A program made the position numbers and the translations under genes. The notes beneath the pieces are model-generated. The model saw only the letters and a list, made by a program, of their open reading frames with translations. It had not been told where the DNA came from and made no database searches. Shown one piece after another: positions 5,320 to 26,129 of a stretch of 26,131 nucleotides of DNA (positions within the stretch are counted from its first letter, which is position 1; the number at the start of each line of letters is the position of its first letter). The stretch is from a virus. The stretch spans positions 1 to 26,131 of IMG/VR virus record IMGVR_UViG_3300005253_001103; one strand, 5' to 3'.

Positions 5320-6054
5320 TTAGACGGTCCAGTCACGGTTGGCCTTGACCAGTAGGTAGTCCACTTGGATGATGGCGGCCTGGGTGGTGTTGGCAGCCGC
5401 CGCCAAGCACACCGCCACGTCGGTCGTGGTCGAAACCGCTCCCACGACGGTCTTCTTGACGTCGCCGTCCACTAGCCAGCGCACCGTGCCGTTGGTGTCT
5501 ACCTCAAGGCGAAGGATTTGGAACTCGCCCGCCGTGACGGTCGCACCCAAGGTAATATCGGCGGCGGTGGCACCGTCGGCGGTAGAACCGCCTGCGTGGA
5601 CGCCGTGCCAGTCGGTCGCGCTGGCTGTCAGCTCGTCACTGAAGTAGAACCCAGCGAGGTCCGCAGTAAGCGTGACAACCGTGGCCGATGAGTTGATGAG
5701 GATGTCTTGGAGCTGCTCATCGGGCGTGAGGATGCTGGTAATCCCGAAGAAGATTTCCTTGGTGTCCACGTCAGGCATCTGCACCCTAGTCTCGCAGATA
5801 ATCGGGCCATTCAGCGCCACGTCAAACCCGATGCCCGTGCCGATGAATACCGTGTCTGCGTCGGTGTTGTCTGAGGTAATCGCGACACAGCCCGACAGGA
5901 AAGATGCCGGGGCAACGCCCCCAGAGGTGGTTTCGTGCGACTCACCGCCAGCGTAAAAGTCGCCCATGTTGGAAGCGTCGAGCGTGTTGGCGAGGGCGTT
6001 TCCGCCGAAGAAGTCGTTGAATAGTCGAATCTTGCCTGGTCCTGCTTCTGCCAT
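5320..6054 (-). CDS. Virion structural protein, lectin-like beta-sandwich, 244 aa
   Basis: This gene lies directly after the major capsid gene. The product opens with RLFNDFFGG and is built of alternating strands. A segment such as ILRLEVDTNGTVRWLVDGD (about residues 180-200) is typical of concanavalin/LamG-like jelly-roll folds, which phages use for decoration and fibre proteins. There is no signal peptide or catalytic motif. The ATG is preceded by AAAGGAAG at good spacing and by a GNRA-type hairpin in the leader. Given its place next to the capsid gene, a head decoration protein is the most likely role. The fold call is inference from residue pattern. Confidence 0.72.
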   Translation of the reverse strand: MAEAGPGKIRLFNDFFGGNALANTLDASNMGDFYAGGESHETTSGGVAPASFLSGCVAITSDNTDADTVFIGTGIGFDVALNGPIICETRVQMPDVDTKEIFFGITSILTPDEQLQDILINSSATVVTLTADLAGFYFSDELTASATDWHGVHAGGSTADGATAADITLGATVTAGEFQILRLEVDTNGTVRWLVDGDVKKTVVGAVSTTTDVAVCLAAAANTTQAAIIQVDYLLVKANRDWTV

Positions 6055-6100: not shown

Positions 6101-7054
6101 TTACGAAGTCGGCGCAGTCGCGTCCGAGAGGTGCCCGAAAGCCCAGTTACTCGCAGACCGCTCTACGAAGGCGTACTCGTCGGTCATGAAGATTTCGTCG
6201 GCGCCGCCCCCAAAGGCGGGGTCGCGCCGCGTCTCGGTCTTGATGCTCATCCCCATAACGGCGACGACGCCCTCCCTGGCGTGGGTTGCACCACGAGCGT
6301 CCGCAGAGCCGTCAATAGTGATGTTGCCGTCCTCGAACACGTTGACGCCGGTGACGGTTCCTGCGAACCCCTGGCGGAACGTGTCCTCAGTCATGCCGTG
6401 AGGGACGGCAAAGGTGCCGACGCCGGAGGTGATGGCGTCCTGGATGTCCTTGATCTGGAAGCCGTGCAGCACCGAGTAGATCGCGCCGATTGAGGGCTCC
6501 GTCGCGTTGGACGAGATGCGGTTCTTGGCGGCTGAGATGTAGCCGTAGGCAAACGCTACGCCAGCGCCCGGCTGGACTGTGGTGGCGAAGGTCGAGAACA
6601 GTGCGAGGTAGTCGTCGTCCTTCTTCCGCGCCATTGCGTTGCCGGCCAAGGTTCCCATCTTGGACTCGACCACATCCGCGATCTTGCGGTAGGTGCGGTC
6701 TGTGACCTTGATGAGAATCTGCGTCATGGTCGGCTCAACAGAGAGCAGCGTGTCTTGTACCTGCTGGGCGTTCTCGTTGTTCGTAGTCTCGCTGATGTCC
6801 TGGCTCGTGAGCTGGGCAAGGGAAATCTCCTGCCAGTTCAGGCCGGTGCCATCCTTCAGCTTTCGTACATCGGTGGTGCGCTGCCACGTCCCCTCGTACT
6901 CGCGGACAATGCGGGCGTCCGCAATGATGGAGGGGAGCGAGTCGGCCAGCGTACCGCTGGTGGTTTCGCCCGTTGCGCCACCAGCTACGGGATAGGCCCG
7001 CACCATTTGGCGCAGCCGAAGCTCACGCCATAGTCGTATGAGAAAATTAGGCAC
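6101..7054 (-). CDS. Major capsid protein (HK97-like fold), 317 aa
   Basis: Identified from position directly after a scaffold-type gene and from its residue pattern. There is a basic N-terminal arm, a region with the W-x-x-T-x-x-R and K-x-G-x-x-x-x-W-x-E spacing of an E-loop (about residues 57-80), a long central helix (TYRKIADVVESKMGTLAGNAMARKK region), and a C-terminal half of alternating strands ending FGHLSDATAPTS. Length is normal for a capsid subunit. The start is a GTG with AGGAGG about 9 bases upstream. An ATG between them is in another frame and gives only a 4-codon ORF. Met17 is an alternative start. Expected to form the icosahedral shell. No protease domain is seen in or next to it. 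Confidence 0.82.
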   Translation of the reverse strand: MPNFLIRLWRELRLRQMVRAYPVAGGATGETTSGTLADSLPSIIADARIVREYEGTWQRTTDVRKLKDGTGLNWQEISLAQLTSQDISETTNNENAQQVQDTLLSVEPTMTQILIKVTDRTYRKIADVVESKMGTLAGNAMARKKDDDYLALFSTFATTVQPGAGVAFAYGYISAAKNRISSNATEPSIGAIYSVLHGFQIKDIQDAITSGVGTFAVPHGMTEDTFRQGFAGTVTGVNVFEDGNITIDGSADARGATHAREGVVAVMGMSIKTETRRDPAFGGGADEIFMTDEYAFVERSASNWAFGHLSDATAPTS

Positions 7055-7069
7055 TTTGCATGCCCTCCT

Positions 7070-8011
7070 TTATCCGCCTTTCTGGCGGTTACGAATCTCC
7101 AATAGTCTCTCAACGGACGTGTCCGGGTCGGTCAGCACGTCTTTGTCGCTGCGCCCGTCAGATGCGCCCGTCTCCAGGGCACCCGTCGCACCGCTCGCGG
7201 GGATGAGGGCCTGAATCTTCGTCAGGTGCTCCGTCAGGCCGACCGTCTCCTCGGCTTCCTTCTTCGCCGCCAGCCTCACCTCAGCCGTCGAGCCGCGCTT
7301 GATAGCGGCGTCGAGCTGCGCGTGAATACGCATCCGCAGCTTGTCCTTGGGCTCCGCGTCGTCAATGCGTTTCCGGTCTTCCGCCGTGAGATAGCGGCGA
7401 GAGGTGTGGGTCTCCAGCATGTCCTGCACCGCGTCGTCATACATCGCGGCGGCAAGGCCGAAGCTAGCCCGCGTCATGTCGGAGCGCATCGTGTCGATGG
7501 AGGCTGAGACAGACTTAAAGTCGGTGGTGATGGTGGTCGCTTGTCCGTCACTCACGAGCTTGGCCTGCCGGGTTAACTCCGTCTCAAGGGCCTCGAAGGC
7601 GTCCGCGCCCTTGTCCCGGATCTCCTGCTCAGTGCTGGCGAAGGTTGAGCGAGCAGCATCCAGCGCCCCGCGTCGGTTGTACTGGCTCTCCCTAAGCGCA
7701 ACTTCCTCACCACGCTCTTCCTGCCCACCTTGCAGCCGCTCTCGCTCTGCGGGGGAGAGCACCGAGTCGTACAGGTCAGGATGCTCCTGCCTGAGCGCCT
7801 TGAGCGTCTCCGCTATCTGGCTACGTGGGTCTGGAGTCGCCTCCTGTCCGGGCTTGGCCTCGTCCTCTGTCCCGCTGGCTCCGCTCTCCCCCGCAGGGGG
7901 CTCTTGCTCAGCGGCGGGTGCGGCCCCGCCTTCAGGTGCAACCGCAGCAGTAGCCTCGGGCTCCGCTGTCGCTGCCGTGGGTTCGTCGGGTGACTGCCTG
8001 AGGGGAAACAT
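7070..8011 (-). CDS. Capsid scaffold protein, 313 aa
   Basis: The protein has a low-complexity N-terminal third rich in Pro, Glu, Ala and Gly, a long helical coiled-coil middle (about residues 70-240) and an acidic, helical C-terminus ending DTSVERLLEIRNRQKGG. It lies 15 bases before the major capsid gene. This composition and place are those of phage scaffold proteins, which guide shell assembly and then leave. The frame extends to a TTG at 8047, but that codon lacks a ribosome site. The ATG at 8011 has GGAGGG 4 bases upstream, so it is preferred. That site lies within the 3' arm of a strong hairpin, so its access is probably controlled. The scaffold call is inferred from context and composition. 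Confidence 0.78.
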   Translation of the reverse strand: MFPLRQSPDEPTAATAEPEATAAVAPEGGAAPAAEQEPPAGESGASGTEDEAKPGQEATPDPRSQIAETLKALRQEHPDLYDSVLSPAERERLQGGQEERGEEVALRESQYNRRGALDAARSTFASTEQEIRDKGADAFEALETELTRQAKLVSDGQATTITTDFKSVSASIDTMRSDMTRASFGLAAAMYDDAVQDMLETHTSRRYLTAEDRKRIDDAEPKDKLRMRIHAQLDAAIKRGSTAEVRLAAKKEAEETVGLTEHLTKIQALIPASGATGALETGASDGRSDKDVLTDPDTSVERLLEIRNRQKGG

Positions 8012-8015
8012 AAAA

Positions 8016-8041
8016 CCCTCCGAGGCTCGCACCTCGAAGGG
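8016..8041 (-). promoter_or_regulatory. Stem-loop covering the scaffold ribosome binding site (possible attenuator)
   Basis: The minus-strand transcript can pair CCCUUCGAGG with CCUCGGAGGG, giving 10 bp with one U-G wobble and a 6-base loop. The 3' arm contains the GGAGGG ribosome site of the scaffold gene, and UUUU then the AUG follow at once. The structure could therefore hide the ribosome site or act as an intrinsic terminator. It sits 40 bases after the stop of the Com-like gene. In phage Mu, Com opens a comparable stem-loop to allow mom translation (established for Mu). A similar switch here is inference. Confidence 0.65.
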
Positions 8042-8081
8042 TGTCAATAATAGCGGCTCAGAAGGCCGTCGTACCTGCCAG

Positions 8082-8255
8082 CTATGCTAACGTAGGAACC
8101 GTAACGTTGTCAAGCTCCCAGTTGAAGCTGTTGATGTTGCCGCACGTCCCCCTGCTGCATTTGATCTCGATGTACGCCACGACTAGGTTGCCCTTGAAGA
8201 GCAGATGCCCACAGCGCCGGCAGCGGTACTCGCTTGTCAACGCGCCATCTATCAT
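8082..8255 (-). CDS. Com-like zinc-finger protein (translational regulator family), 57 aa
   Basis: The segment YRCRRCGHLLFKG followed by YIEIKC closely matches the zinc-binding core of phage Mu Com (C-x2-C, LLFK, then I-E-I-basic-C). The second cysteine pair is spaced C-x4-C (CSRGTC) rather than C-x2-C as in Mu, an oddity that may change metal geometry. Com binds a stem-loop in the mom mRNA leader and frees its ribosome site (known for Mu). Here the next element on the same strand is a hairpin burying the scaffold ribosome site. The ATG has TAGGA 5 bases upstream. The gene lies 29 bases from the divergent plus-strand gene. Identity as a Com-family fold is fairly sure; target and effect are inferred. 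Confidence 0.8.
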   Translation of the reverse strand: MIDGALTSEYRCRRCGHLLFKGNLVVAYIEIKCSRGTCGNINSFNWELDNVTVPTLA

Positions 8256-8263
8256 GCTATCCT
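8234..8263 (+). promoter_or_regulatory. Candidate sigma70 promoter for the plus-strand exported-protein gene
   Basis: TTGTCA at 8234-8239 and TATCCT at 8258-8263 are separated by 18 bases, a fair match to the sigma70 consensus. Transcription would begin about 15 bases before the AAGAGGTGG ribosome site of the exported-protein gene. The site overlaps the start of the Com-like gene on the other strand, so the two transcription units would interfere. Confidence 0.4.
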
Positions 8264-8284: not shown

Positions 8285-8563
8285 ATGCAGTTGCGCTTCA
8301 CGTTCCTTGTTCTCATCGTGGCCGTAGTCGCCTCGGTCTTCGCCATCTGGCCCGCCGTGGCGGACGCGCCGTGGGAAGAGGAGGCGGTGATCGTTGTTGA
8401 GACTGAAGCCCCTGATCCGAGATGCGAAGCCGCGCACATTATGAAAGCGGAGGCTACTGTATCTCTGGCTGAAATCCCAAGACGCAACAGCAGGGGCAGC
8501 CCTCAGGGCCAGTTGGAAACTGTAATCGAAGACGCTGATCGGGACATTCGCCGCTACTGCTAG
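8285..8563 (+). CDS. Small exported or membrane-anchored protein, 92 aa, opposite strand
   Basis: This is the only plus-strand gene within the late region. The ATG is preceded by AAGAGGTGG. The N-terminus is a textbook signal sequence: a basic start (MQLRF), a hydrophobic core (about residues 5-24) and a small-residue site reading PAVADA before PWEE. The mature part is acidic, with one cysteine in the middle and one at the very end. The reading frame could extend 17 codons upstream, but that part lacks a ribosome site. It converges on the polyvalent gene with 2 bases between stops. Its orientation suggests independent expression, as for a lysogenic-conversion, superinfection-exclusion or other cargo gene. 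The mature part matches nothing I know. Confidence 0.68.
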   Translation: MQLRFTFLVLIVAVVASVFAIWPAVADAPWEEEAVIVVETEAPDPRCEAAHIMKAEATVSLAEIPRRNSRGSPQGQLETVIEDADRDIRRYC

Positions 8564-17490: not shown

Positions 17491-17691
17491 TTAGATTACG
17501 TCTAGTGTAGCAGCTTCGTCAAGCTCCTTGTCGGTTCCGCACTCCTCGCAGGTGATGACGCAGGAGTCTGCTCGCACCACGCGGCCCTTCCAGCGCACGA
17601 TGATCTGCCCGTCGGGGCGGCGGCGCCCGATCTTGTTGCCGCAGTCAGGGCAATAGATTTCCATCATCGGGGGACGGGGGTCCTGGTTCAT
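17491..17691 (-). CDS. Zinc-ribbon protein, 66 aa
   Basis: Two CxxC knuckles, CPDCGNK (near residue 14) and CEECGTD (near 48), are separated by a strand-rich basic segment (GQIIVRWKGRVVRADS). This is the layout of a small zinc ribbon, and the second half (CVITCEECG) loosely recalls Com-type fingers. The ATG overlaps the terminase TGA (ATGA). Met9 or Met10 are alternative starts. It sits just before the structured leader of the portal gene, a place that would suit a local regulator of translation. This role is inferred from context only. Confidence 0.7.
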   Translation of the reverse strand: MNQDPRPPMMEIYCPDCGNKIGRRRPDGQIIVRWKGRVVRADSCVITCEECGTDKELDEAATLDVI

Positions 17692-24744: not shown

Positions 24745-25431
24745 TCATTGCTGCGCCCTCCGCACGGCCTGGGGCCGCAATACGAGGTTGCTCCCGCATC
24801 GTCGCTCAGCCTCATCACAGAATTGAGGGTTGATTTCGATGCCGATTGCTCTTCGCCCTGTCTGCTCTGCTGCCACCAGGACAGGGCCGACACCACAGCA
24901 AGGGTCAAGGATAAGATCTCCTGGCGACGTACTCGCTTCTATGAGTTGGCGCATTAAGGCGGCTGGCTTCTCGGTCGGGTGAGCCATCGCCTGGGCTGCG
25001 ATGCGATCCGCGAATAGGACATTTGAGGGCCGTCCGTTCCTGAGTAAGTGCCGCCCCTTCACGGCGAAGATGATCTCTTCATATTGACTAGCCCAGTTGC
25101 CCTTCAGATCGCCCATGCCCCAGTTGTTCTTGACCCAAATGAGTTTGTTGAGGGGTCGAAGGTAGTTCCCAACCATGTGCCACCAGTCCGGCGAAACGTC
25201 GAAGCGACAGAACAGATAGAATGCGCCCTCCTTCTTGAGAATCCGCTGAACTAGCGGGAGCAGTCGCCAGAGAATGTTGCCGTAGTCACCAATCATCGCT
25301 TCGCGTTCCTGCTTGGAGCGATGCCCAGATTGATATGCGATGCCGTAGGGCGGATCAGCGATGATGAGGTCTACTGACTCGGCAGCCATTTGGCTCATAT
25401 GCTCGATGCAGTCGCCCTGAATCAGCTCCAT
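24745..25431 (-). CDS. DNA methyltransferase (N6-adenine/N4-cytosine type), 228 aa
   Basis: The catalytic motif IIADPPYGIAY (DPPY at 26-29) comes before HPTEKP (151-156) and the SAM-binding region LDPCCGVGPVLVAAEQTGRRAIGIE (DPCCGVGP at 176-183), the beta-class motif order. DPPY favours adenine N6 methylation. The ATG shares one base with the upstream TGA (TGATG). The frame is open far upstream, but that part is a shadow of the neighbouring methyltransferase. No restriction endonuclease is adjacent, so the enzyme may be an orphan that protects phage DNA or acts in regulation. Its glycine-rich loop has CCGVG where the neighbour has FMGSG. Confidence 0.88.
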   Translation of the reverse strand: MELIQGDCIEHMSQMAAESVDLIIADPPYGIAYQSGHRSKQEREAMIGDYGNILWRLLPLVQRILKKEGAFYLFCRFDVSPDWWHMVGNYLRPLNKLIWVKNNWGMGDLKGNWASQYEEIIFAVKGRHLLRNGRPSNVLFADRIAAQAMAHPTEKPAALMRQLIEASTSPGDLILDPCCGVGPVLVAAEQTGRRAIGIEINPQFCDEAERRCGSNLVLRPQAVRRAQQ

Positions 25432-26129
25432 CACACGCCCTCCAGCTTCGCCTGCCCAGCCGGGGCGGGGCGGGGCGCGAGGGGCAGCACGCTCTGCGCT
25501 AGGCGCTGGGCGGCGATCTTGCAGTACTTCTCCCCGATCTCGATGCCGATGGCCTTGCGCCCCAGGTCTTTCGCTGCTCGCAGCGTCGTACCGCTGCCCA
25601 TGAAGGGGTCGAGGATGGTCTCGCCCTCCGCCGAACAGTTTTGTACCAGCCAGCGCCAGAGCGTGATGGGCTTCGGGCAAGGATGGTCGCGCTCGGGTCC
25701 CTTGGAGAAGTTCAGGGGGTCTTGGCGGAAGTAGTCTTGGCCGTGCCACTTCTTCGGTGGGTATCCATAGAGCAGCACTGGCTCCCACGCATTGAGCCCG
25801 CGCATACGGTTGTAGGCGACGGCTGAAGGCTTGTGCCAGCAGAGCATCCAAAGTGGGGCAGGGTAATTCCAGGCATACTTGATGCCCGGCGTGAAGACTA
25901 GGCGCTTCGTAAGGGCGCTCGTTAGATCGAACCAGGTTTCACAGAATATCTGGTAGTCAGCATCGCTCAGTACCTCATGGTTCTCATACGTGCGTTCGTT
26001 TGGGCCGATATTCTTGGAGTTATACGGCGGGTCCGTCAGCACGACGTCTACCGGCCCCAGCGTGGGCAGCACCTCGCGGCAGTCACCGTGATAGATCACG
26101 ATGCCGTCTCGCTCGTAGTAGGGCTTCAC
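25431..26129 (-). CDS. DNA methyltransferase (N6-adenine/N4-cytosine type), 232 aa
   Basis: The protein begins MKPYYERDGIVIYHGDC, a typical start for this family. It carries TDPPYNSKN (DPPY at 33-36), PCPKP (150-154) and LDPFMGSGTTLRAA (DPFMGSGTT at 174-182), again in beta-class order. The GTG start lies 2 bases from the window end, so a longer N-terminus cannot be ruled out, though the family start fits. It overlaps the next methyltransferase by one base. The two tandem enzymes have clearly different sequences and probably methylate different sites. A role in evading host restriction is likely from family knowledge. Confidence 0.88.
   Translation of the reverse strand: MKPYYERDGIVIYHGDCREVLPTLGPVDVVLTDPPYNSKNIGPNERTYENHEVLSDADYQIFCETWFDLTSALTKRLVFTPGIKYAWNYPAPLWMLCWHKPSAVAYNRMRGLNAWEPVLLYGYPPKKWHGQDYFRQDPLNFSKGPERDHPCPKPITLWRWLVQNCSAEGETILDPFMGSGTTLRAAKDLGRKAIGIEIGEKYCKIAAQRLAQSVLPLAPRPAPAGQAKLEGV

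Follow-up and report, generated by a model that had tools for sequence, protein, structure and literature searches.

A putative Com-type RNA switch in front of viral capsid scaffold and major capsid genes

Introduction

Could a Com-type RNA switch govern the genes that build a viral head? As far as the papers we searched show, Com has been described only as the activator of the mom gene of phage Mu. Mu Com recognizes CC(N)2-3GAG in a hairpin loop closed by C-G, the GA being essential; the target hairpin is flanked by GA, and the SELEX motif is NGAGNNCC(N)2-3GAGNNCCNN (PMC6483171). In the mom site, GAAUGCCUGCGAGCAUCC, these elements read GA-AUGC-CUGCGA-GCAU-C, and Com binds such a hairpin and activates translation (PMC6483171).

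The question is raised by a 26,131-base IMG/VR virus record, IMGVR_UViG_3300005253_001103 (positions 1 to 26,131; hereafter the window). The original prediction for this DNA described a small protein with the Mu Com core, a stem-loop carrying the ribosome site GGAGGG, UUUU and a scaffold AUG, and proposed that head assembly is placed under a Com-type translational switch. We found these elements in the predicted order, each in its place on the minus strand, and analyzed them together with their counterparts in related and unrelated loci.

Results

Gene order and the scaffold-capsid operon

Gene order along the minus strand of the window begins with the terminase large subunit (19247-17688; PHROG 38, E=3e-75) and a zinc ribbon of 66 aa. 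A protein of 600 aa occupies the position of the portal; small genes and a gene for 1673 aa come next, followed by those for the Com-like protein, the scaffold and the major capsid protein (Table 1). In tblastn comparisons, the last of these matched annotated major capsid proteins of the Pelagibacter phages HTVC111P and HTVC112P and of phage DSL-LC06, and on these matches its assignment can be considered safe. An annotated scaffolding gene lies directly upstream of the capsid gene in HTVC111P and DSL-LC06. The identities of both window genes fit, given the Pelagibacter phage capsid matches and the HTVC111P scaffolding gene in the same place. Upstream in-frame TTG and GTG codons were rejected as scaffold starts because they have no counterpart in L089, the closest relative (see below), which supports AUG 8011 as the start. 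The promoter-like element predicted at 8084..8113 would start the leader RNA for scaffold and capsid.

Table 1. Features of the com-scaffold-capsid region of the window.
Feature	Positions	Strand	Description
Com-like zinc-ribbon protein gene	8082..8255	-	57 aa, C-x2-C ... C-x4-C; product MIDGALTSEYRCRRCGHLLFKGNLVVAYIEIKCSRGTCGNINSFNWELDNVTVPTLA
Promoter-like TTGACA-N18-TAGCAT	8084..8113	-	inside 3′ end of com-like gene; 10/12 consensus match
Candidate Com-target hairpin	8029..8045	-	GA-CACC-CUUCGA-GGUG-C; 36 nt after com stop; proposed anti-blocking hairpin
Blocking hairpin, 12-bp	8015..8042	-	ACCCUUCGAGGU-GCGA-GCCUCGGAGGGU; U-rich tail after; terminator-like
Scaffold Shine-Dalgarno GGAGGG	8016..8021	-	wholly within 3′ arm of blocking stem
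Capsid scaffold gene (putative regulated gene)	7070..8011	-	313 aa; alanine/glutamate-rich; directly precedes capsid gene
Major capsid protein gene	6101..7054	-	same operon as scaffold

Other features of the window were recorded alongside this operon. The 66-aa protein is a second small zinc ribbon, located directly after the terminase gene (17491-17691, minus strand); no Com-family match was found for this window copy, and a relative has a zinc-ribbon ORF in a comparable place (L106:1489-1662). Two DNA-methyltransferase-like ORFs occupy 24745-26129 on the minus strand, and no Com target was found upstream of them. On the plus strand, ORF 8285-8563, situated between the 1673-aa gene and com, encodes a signal peptide (MQLRFTFLVLIVAVVASVFAIWPAVADA...) and comes with its own ribosome site and promoter-like element (8234-8263); being absent from L089, it is possibly a moron. 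This ORF prompted a reading of the leader hairpin as the plain terminator of the moron, which was dropped because L089 lacks ORF 8285-8563 yet retains com, leader and hairpin.

A divergent Com-like zinc ribbon

The 57-aa protein contains CRRC (C-x2-C), LLFK and IEIKC, the core noted in the original prediction, and its four cysteines make up a zinc module. The second metal knuckle is C-x4-C as opposed to Mu's C-x2-C; the C-x4-C spacing is also present in L110 and L113. Against PF10122 (Zn_ribbon_Com), the protein scored 20.5 bits (E=3.4e-4), below the Pfam cut-off of 22.9; because of this score we treat it, from its sequence, as Com-like and not as a Com certified by Pfam's rule. It further matched PHROG 6417 'translational regulator' (9.4e-5) and PHROG 13819 'gpCom' (1.8e-4). 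The com gene of L074, a relative discussed below, is above the Pfam cut-off (23.2 bits; PHROG 6417, 1.5e-7). No close sequence relatives of the 57-aa protein were found in viral contigs or cultured phages, and solved structures returned only generic zinc fingers and ribbons.

The leader can form two mutually exclusive hairpins

The blocking stem pairs 8042-8031 with 8026-8015 around a GCGA loop. It comprises 12 bp, including two G-U pairs, rather than the 10 bp originally counted, and carries GGAGGG in its 3′ arm as predicted; UUUU and the scaffold AUG at 8011 follow. In the predicted folding of the free leader, this stem forms and the mean P(unpaired) of the Shine-Dalgarno (SD) sequence is 0.000, a structure that hides the translation start. 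In its folding, the sequence stands out only moderately (z = -1.76 over the 92-nt leader, -0.89 over 266 nt), so that the significance of the stem rests on comparison; folding significance alone, being weak, was not used as evidence. The hairpin also scored as terminator-like. Its U-tract is short (UUUUAUGUUU), which makes termination in the window uncertain, and terminator-like sites in the region are not above chance (6 found vs 7.9 expected).

The original prediction missed a second structure in the leader, a candidate Com-target hairpin. Using a search pattern modelled on the mom site (GA, four pairs, C-N2-3-GA, C), which also recovers the mom site itself, we located this hairpin at 8045-8029, near the scaffold AUG; it fits the published Mu Com target pattern. 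All-Watson-Crick matches to the search pattern number nine in five leaders vs about five in the rest of the 1.14 Mb formed by all loci. The five leaders are those of the window (single copy) and of L054, L074, L110 and L118 (two tandem copies each), and the L074 leader includes an exact match to the bipartite SELEX motif, GAGAACCUUGAGUUCC (CGAGAACCUUGAGUUCCGU).

The target uses 8043-8030 and, with these positions, the 5′ arm of the SD stem; the two hairpins are thus mutually exclusive. In the free window RNA, the blocking stem is favoured (predicted -34.6 kcal/mol). Forcing the target at a predicted cost of 5.9 kcal/mol raised SD openness from 0.00 to 0.09-0.17 in the window, and forcing it in L089 at 8.8 kcal/mol raised openness from 0.002 to 0.31. 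Predicted openness is modest even with the target formed, as GGAGGG is still able to pair weakly with CCCCUC just after the AUG. Because the free blocking hairpin is more stable, Com would need to supply about 6 kcal/mol or else act during transcription.

Both hairpins are kept in the closest relative

Scanning with the scaffold protein identified only one close relative of the window in the collections searched, IMGVR_UViG_3300037247_000872 (L088/L089; 44,174 bases), whose scaffold counterpart is 73% identical. L089 presents, in order, a Com-like ORF (5714-5896), TTGACA-N17-TAAGCT and the stem with GGAGGGCG-UUUU-AUG, keeping the Com-like ORF, the stem, the SD position, UUUU and AUG. By hand count, 12 of 12 blocking-stem pairs are preserved between the two leaders, with 7 unchanged, 4 changed on one side and 1 on both sides (A-U to G-C); the compensation envisaged by the original prediction was thereby borne out in this relative. 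The target equivalent in L089 reads GA-GCGCU-CUUUGA-GGCGU-C, with an A-U to G-C exchange in its stem.

The capsid protein encoded in L088:1-1793 is unrelated to that of the window, and the exchange point falls in the 3′ end of the scaffold gene. Hence com, leader and scaffold have stayed together as a block through an exchange of the coat gene.

Targets accompany com genes in related leaders

Capsid-based scans yielded many relatives, and 56 distinct scaffold leaders were compared. A Com-like zinc ribbon is encoded upstream in 10 of the 56 (window, L018, L021, L054, L064, L072, L074, L110, L113 and L118), with one extra ORF separating com from the leader in L054 and L110. Nearly all 10 have a stem and a U-run directly before the scaffold ribosome site, which usually falls outside the stem. 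The expected co-occurrence was observed: the target is present in 6 of the 10 leaders with com vs none of the 46 without (Fisher 6e-6, uncorrected for kinship). No recognisable target was found in L018, L021 and L072, which have com and a terminator-like hairpin.

These counts bear on the reading that the window hairpin is an ordinary terminator or a 5′ stabilising stem unrelated to Com, and that the Com-like gene acts elsewhere, for instance on the window's methyltransferase genes. Many com-free relatives (e.g., L010, L011, L014, L019, L023 and L026) likewise have a terminator-like hairpin before the scaffold, and the two methyltransferase ORFs offer an alternative object of regulation. However, the com-free leaders lack the Com target altogether, and the window's canonical target sits in the scaffold leader, overlapping the stem; the one further all-Watson-Crick match that the window contains falls within an ORF and not before the methyltransferases. 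We consider this reading quite unlikely.

In the window, L089, L018 and L064, a promoter-like element lies at the 3′ end of com or close to it; in L054, one is found between com and the leader. These positions suggest that the leader is transcribed separately, as an RNA whose outcome Com would determine.

In several leaders, the target is duplicated. Tandem targets lie 23-24 nt apart in L074:5111-5150, L054:5147-5185, L110:2011-2050, L118:2131-2170 and L204:1436-1475; in all five, the second copy occupies the tip of the terminator-like hairpin. Binding there would be compatible with the hairpin or would stabilise it, as expected if the Com-like protein represses, through pro-termination or feedback on com mRNA, rather than activates. 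Against this, the promoter-nearest target in the tandem leaders overlaps the base of the blocking stem, the window's single target is incompatible with its blocking stem, and Mu Com is an activator (PMC6483171). Repression is, in our judgement, unlikely, and we infer that binding activates.

Further variation was noted among these loci. Both tandem targets of L064 (4634-4680) have GU in place of GA (GU-GCU-CUAGU-AGC-C and GU-GUC-CUAGU-GAC-C) and the Com-like protein encoded beside them is divergent, so that the specificity of the two partners may have changed together. An element TTAACAA-N3-4-AATA, which we take to be reminiscent of boxA, is common to the leaders of L074, L054, L204 and L081 upstream of the targets, L081 being without com. 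HNH-endonuclease-like genes are inserted around the com-scaffold junction at L074:4354-4935, L110:1484-1828 and L063:4771-5235. The phage of L011 has no com before its scaffold; it has a com-like gene elsewhere (L103:1486-1605), followed by an amidase-like gene, with no strict target.

Independent scans recover the pairing of com and target

The RNA pattern GAGCTACNNAGATAGCC was scanned over 2.9 million viral contigs and matched at 43 places. Most of these were set aside as chance matches without a second site; a second target nearby was found only in the known leaders and in one new contig, L204. Although L204 was found by the RNA pattern alone, it has a com gene upstream (PHROG 6417, 1.1e-5); downstream come a scaffold-like gene and a capsid gene, the latter from another family (PHROG 267, 4.5e-27).

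Scans with Com proteins alone added loci without capsid bias, giving 51 distinct com-downstream regions. A sequence-only motif without any pairing rule had 72 matches in these regions, 50 of them with all four pairs; the corresponding controls were 2/16 on the antisense strand, 14/274 in other sequence windows and 0.44/20 in shuffles. Overall, a paired target was present in 31 of the 51 regions vs 0.25 expected from shuffles. The 20 regions without a strict match are accounted for in part by targets outside the scanned stretch (L054, L110 and L218) or deviant ones (L089 and L064). Positions in the target stem vary widely yet stay paired, indicating covariation. Rfam returned no family match up to E=1 in seven leader-bearing loci.

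Terminator-like stems are built on the target

In 18 loci (L229 and L252 by eye), the 3′ arm of the target, usually ...AGCC in the relatives, forms the base of the 5′ arm of a terminator-like stem. It is the last target whose 3′ arm supplies this base, or the first target in the tandem leaders of the capsid family, and a U-run follows the stem. The overlap between this antiterminator-like hairpin and the 5′ arm of the terminator is 12 nt in the window, where terminator strength is uncertain, and 3-16 nt in the other loci.

Target and terminator-like stem precede scaffold genes in the window, L089, L074, L054, L110, L118, L113, L064, L204, L243 (next gene: major head protein, PHROG 212) and probably L223, and the scaffold genes so preceded span at least three capsid families. 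Elsewhere, they precede a portal-size gene (L218), an amidase gene (L267), a cell-wall hydrolase gene (L271), a PIG-L-type gene (L220), a prohead-protease-like gene (L252) and two others (L229 and L236). For L218 and L223, the portal and scaffold roles, respectively, were assigned solely by location, size and composition. A different layout was seen upstream of DNA methyltransferases and related genes, those of the cultured phages AP3 and Mana among them: the target is no more than some tens of nucleotides from the start codon, a proximity shared with Mu, and the scanned loci of this type showed no terminator-like stem overlapping it.

Because a U-tract follows the stem in most relatives and the ribosome site lies outside, the conserved blocking hairpin resembles an intrinsic terminator, and the family-wide output is probably antitermination; SD occlusion is, among the leaders compared, special to the window and L089. 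Antitermination might then be the whole effect in the window as well, with 8042-8015 acting as an intrinsic terminator, Com as the antiterminator, and the SD in the 3′ arm as a by-product of compact packing. The terminator-like score of the window hairpin fits this proposal, as do L074, L054, L110, L118, L113, L064, L204, L218, L220, L223, L243, L267, L271, L229 and L236, in all of which the 3′ arm of the target is the base of a U-run stem and the ribosome site lies outside. However, in the window and L089 only UUUU precedes the AUG and the SD has stayed within the stem, suggesting selection for occlusion, and the region shows no excess of terminator-like sites over chance. We regard antitermination as the sole effect in the window as possible but doubtful.

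Discussion

A Com-type RNA switch that controls head synthesis is the best explanation of the locus, and we consider it probable on the comparative evidence. The switch proposed in the original prediction gained a target hairpin that excludes the SD hairpin and recurs with other capsid families; its translational output holds less well, as the output across the family is probably antitermination.

Based on these findings, we propose a plausible mechanism. By default, the scaffold-capsid leader would fold into hairpin 8042-8015, hiding the scaffold ribosome site; with its U-rich tail, this hairpin may also terminate transcription. We infer that the Com-like protein encoded just upstream recognizes hairpin 8045-8029. 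Because this target uses the 5′ arm of the blocking hairpin, binding would stabilise the target and prevent the block, so that production of scaffold and capsid is switched on. With a terminator as the block, polymerase would read on once Com holds the target. The block would thus be ribosome occlusion, perhaps plus termination, in the window, and termination alone in most relatives, a division that we propose from the position of the ribosome site.

The arrangement shares with Mu com-mom a small zinc-ribbon protein encoded just upstream, a target of the form GA-N4-CN2-3GA-N4-C, and an inhibitory structure at the translation start that adjoins the target and interacts with it. It differs in that the downstream genes encode scaffold and major capsid protein rather than a DNA-modification enzyme, in that com and scaffold do not overlap and are separated by a 70-nt leader with its own promoter-like site, and in that the target itself excludes the blocking hairpin, which is terminator-like; the protein, as described above, is divergent. 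In the Burkholderia P2-like phages AP3, Mana and KS5, com likewise lies directly upstream, and AP3 and Mana have the same kind of target (GA-GGGC-CACGA-GCCC-C), whereas the downstream gene is an N4/N6 DNA methyltransferase and there is no overlapping terminator-like hairpin in such loci scanned.

Antitermination systems offer a second comparison. LicT/BglG proteins stabilise a hairpin that shares a strand with an intrinsic terminator, the 3′ strand of the former being the 5′ strand of the latter, and the window leader would resemble them in having an antiterminator-like RNA hairpin that overlaps a terminator. In contrast, the window protein is a 57-aa zinc ribbon without CAT or PRD domains, the RNA motif is unrelated, and the blocking stem also contains the ribosome site. 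Late-gene antitermination by a phage protein is known from lambda-type Q or N. By analogy, the Com-like protein could carry polymerase past a terminator in the leader of structural genes, with the difference that in the window the leader hairpin itself would be the switch.

Taken together, we lean slightly towards a view of Com as a general phage RNA regulator with two outputs: it would unmask start sites ahead of methyltransferases and act as an antiterminator ahead of capsid, portal and lysis genes. The window would stand between the two, a single hairpin doubling as terminator and as SD lock for head assembly.

In the literature searched, whose coverage was incomplete, no paper was found that joins Com, mom and antitermination, or the scaffold equivalents. 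A Com-type switch on capsid assembly and its antiterminator-like layout, both proposed here from sequence comparison, are thus undescribed in the papers searched or in Rfam. What looks like the same protein-RNA recognition is present in many phages upstream of genes for capsid construction and for lysis, in an arrangement that would affect the termination of transcription. Were this so, phages would have a new way to time head assembly, and many unexplained small zinc-ribbon genes beside structural operons would gain a function. It would also reveal a compact, portable protein-RNA pair whose specificity seems to shift in step, as in the GA to GU change of L064.
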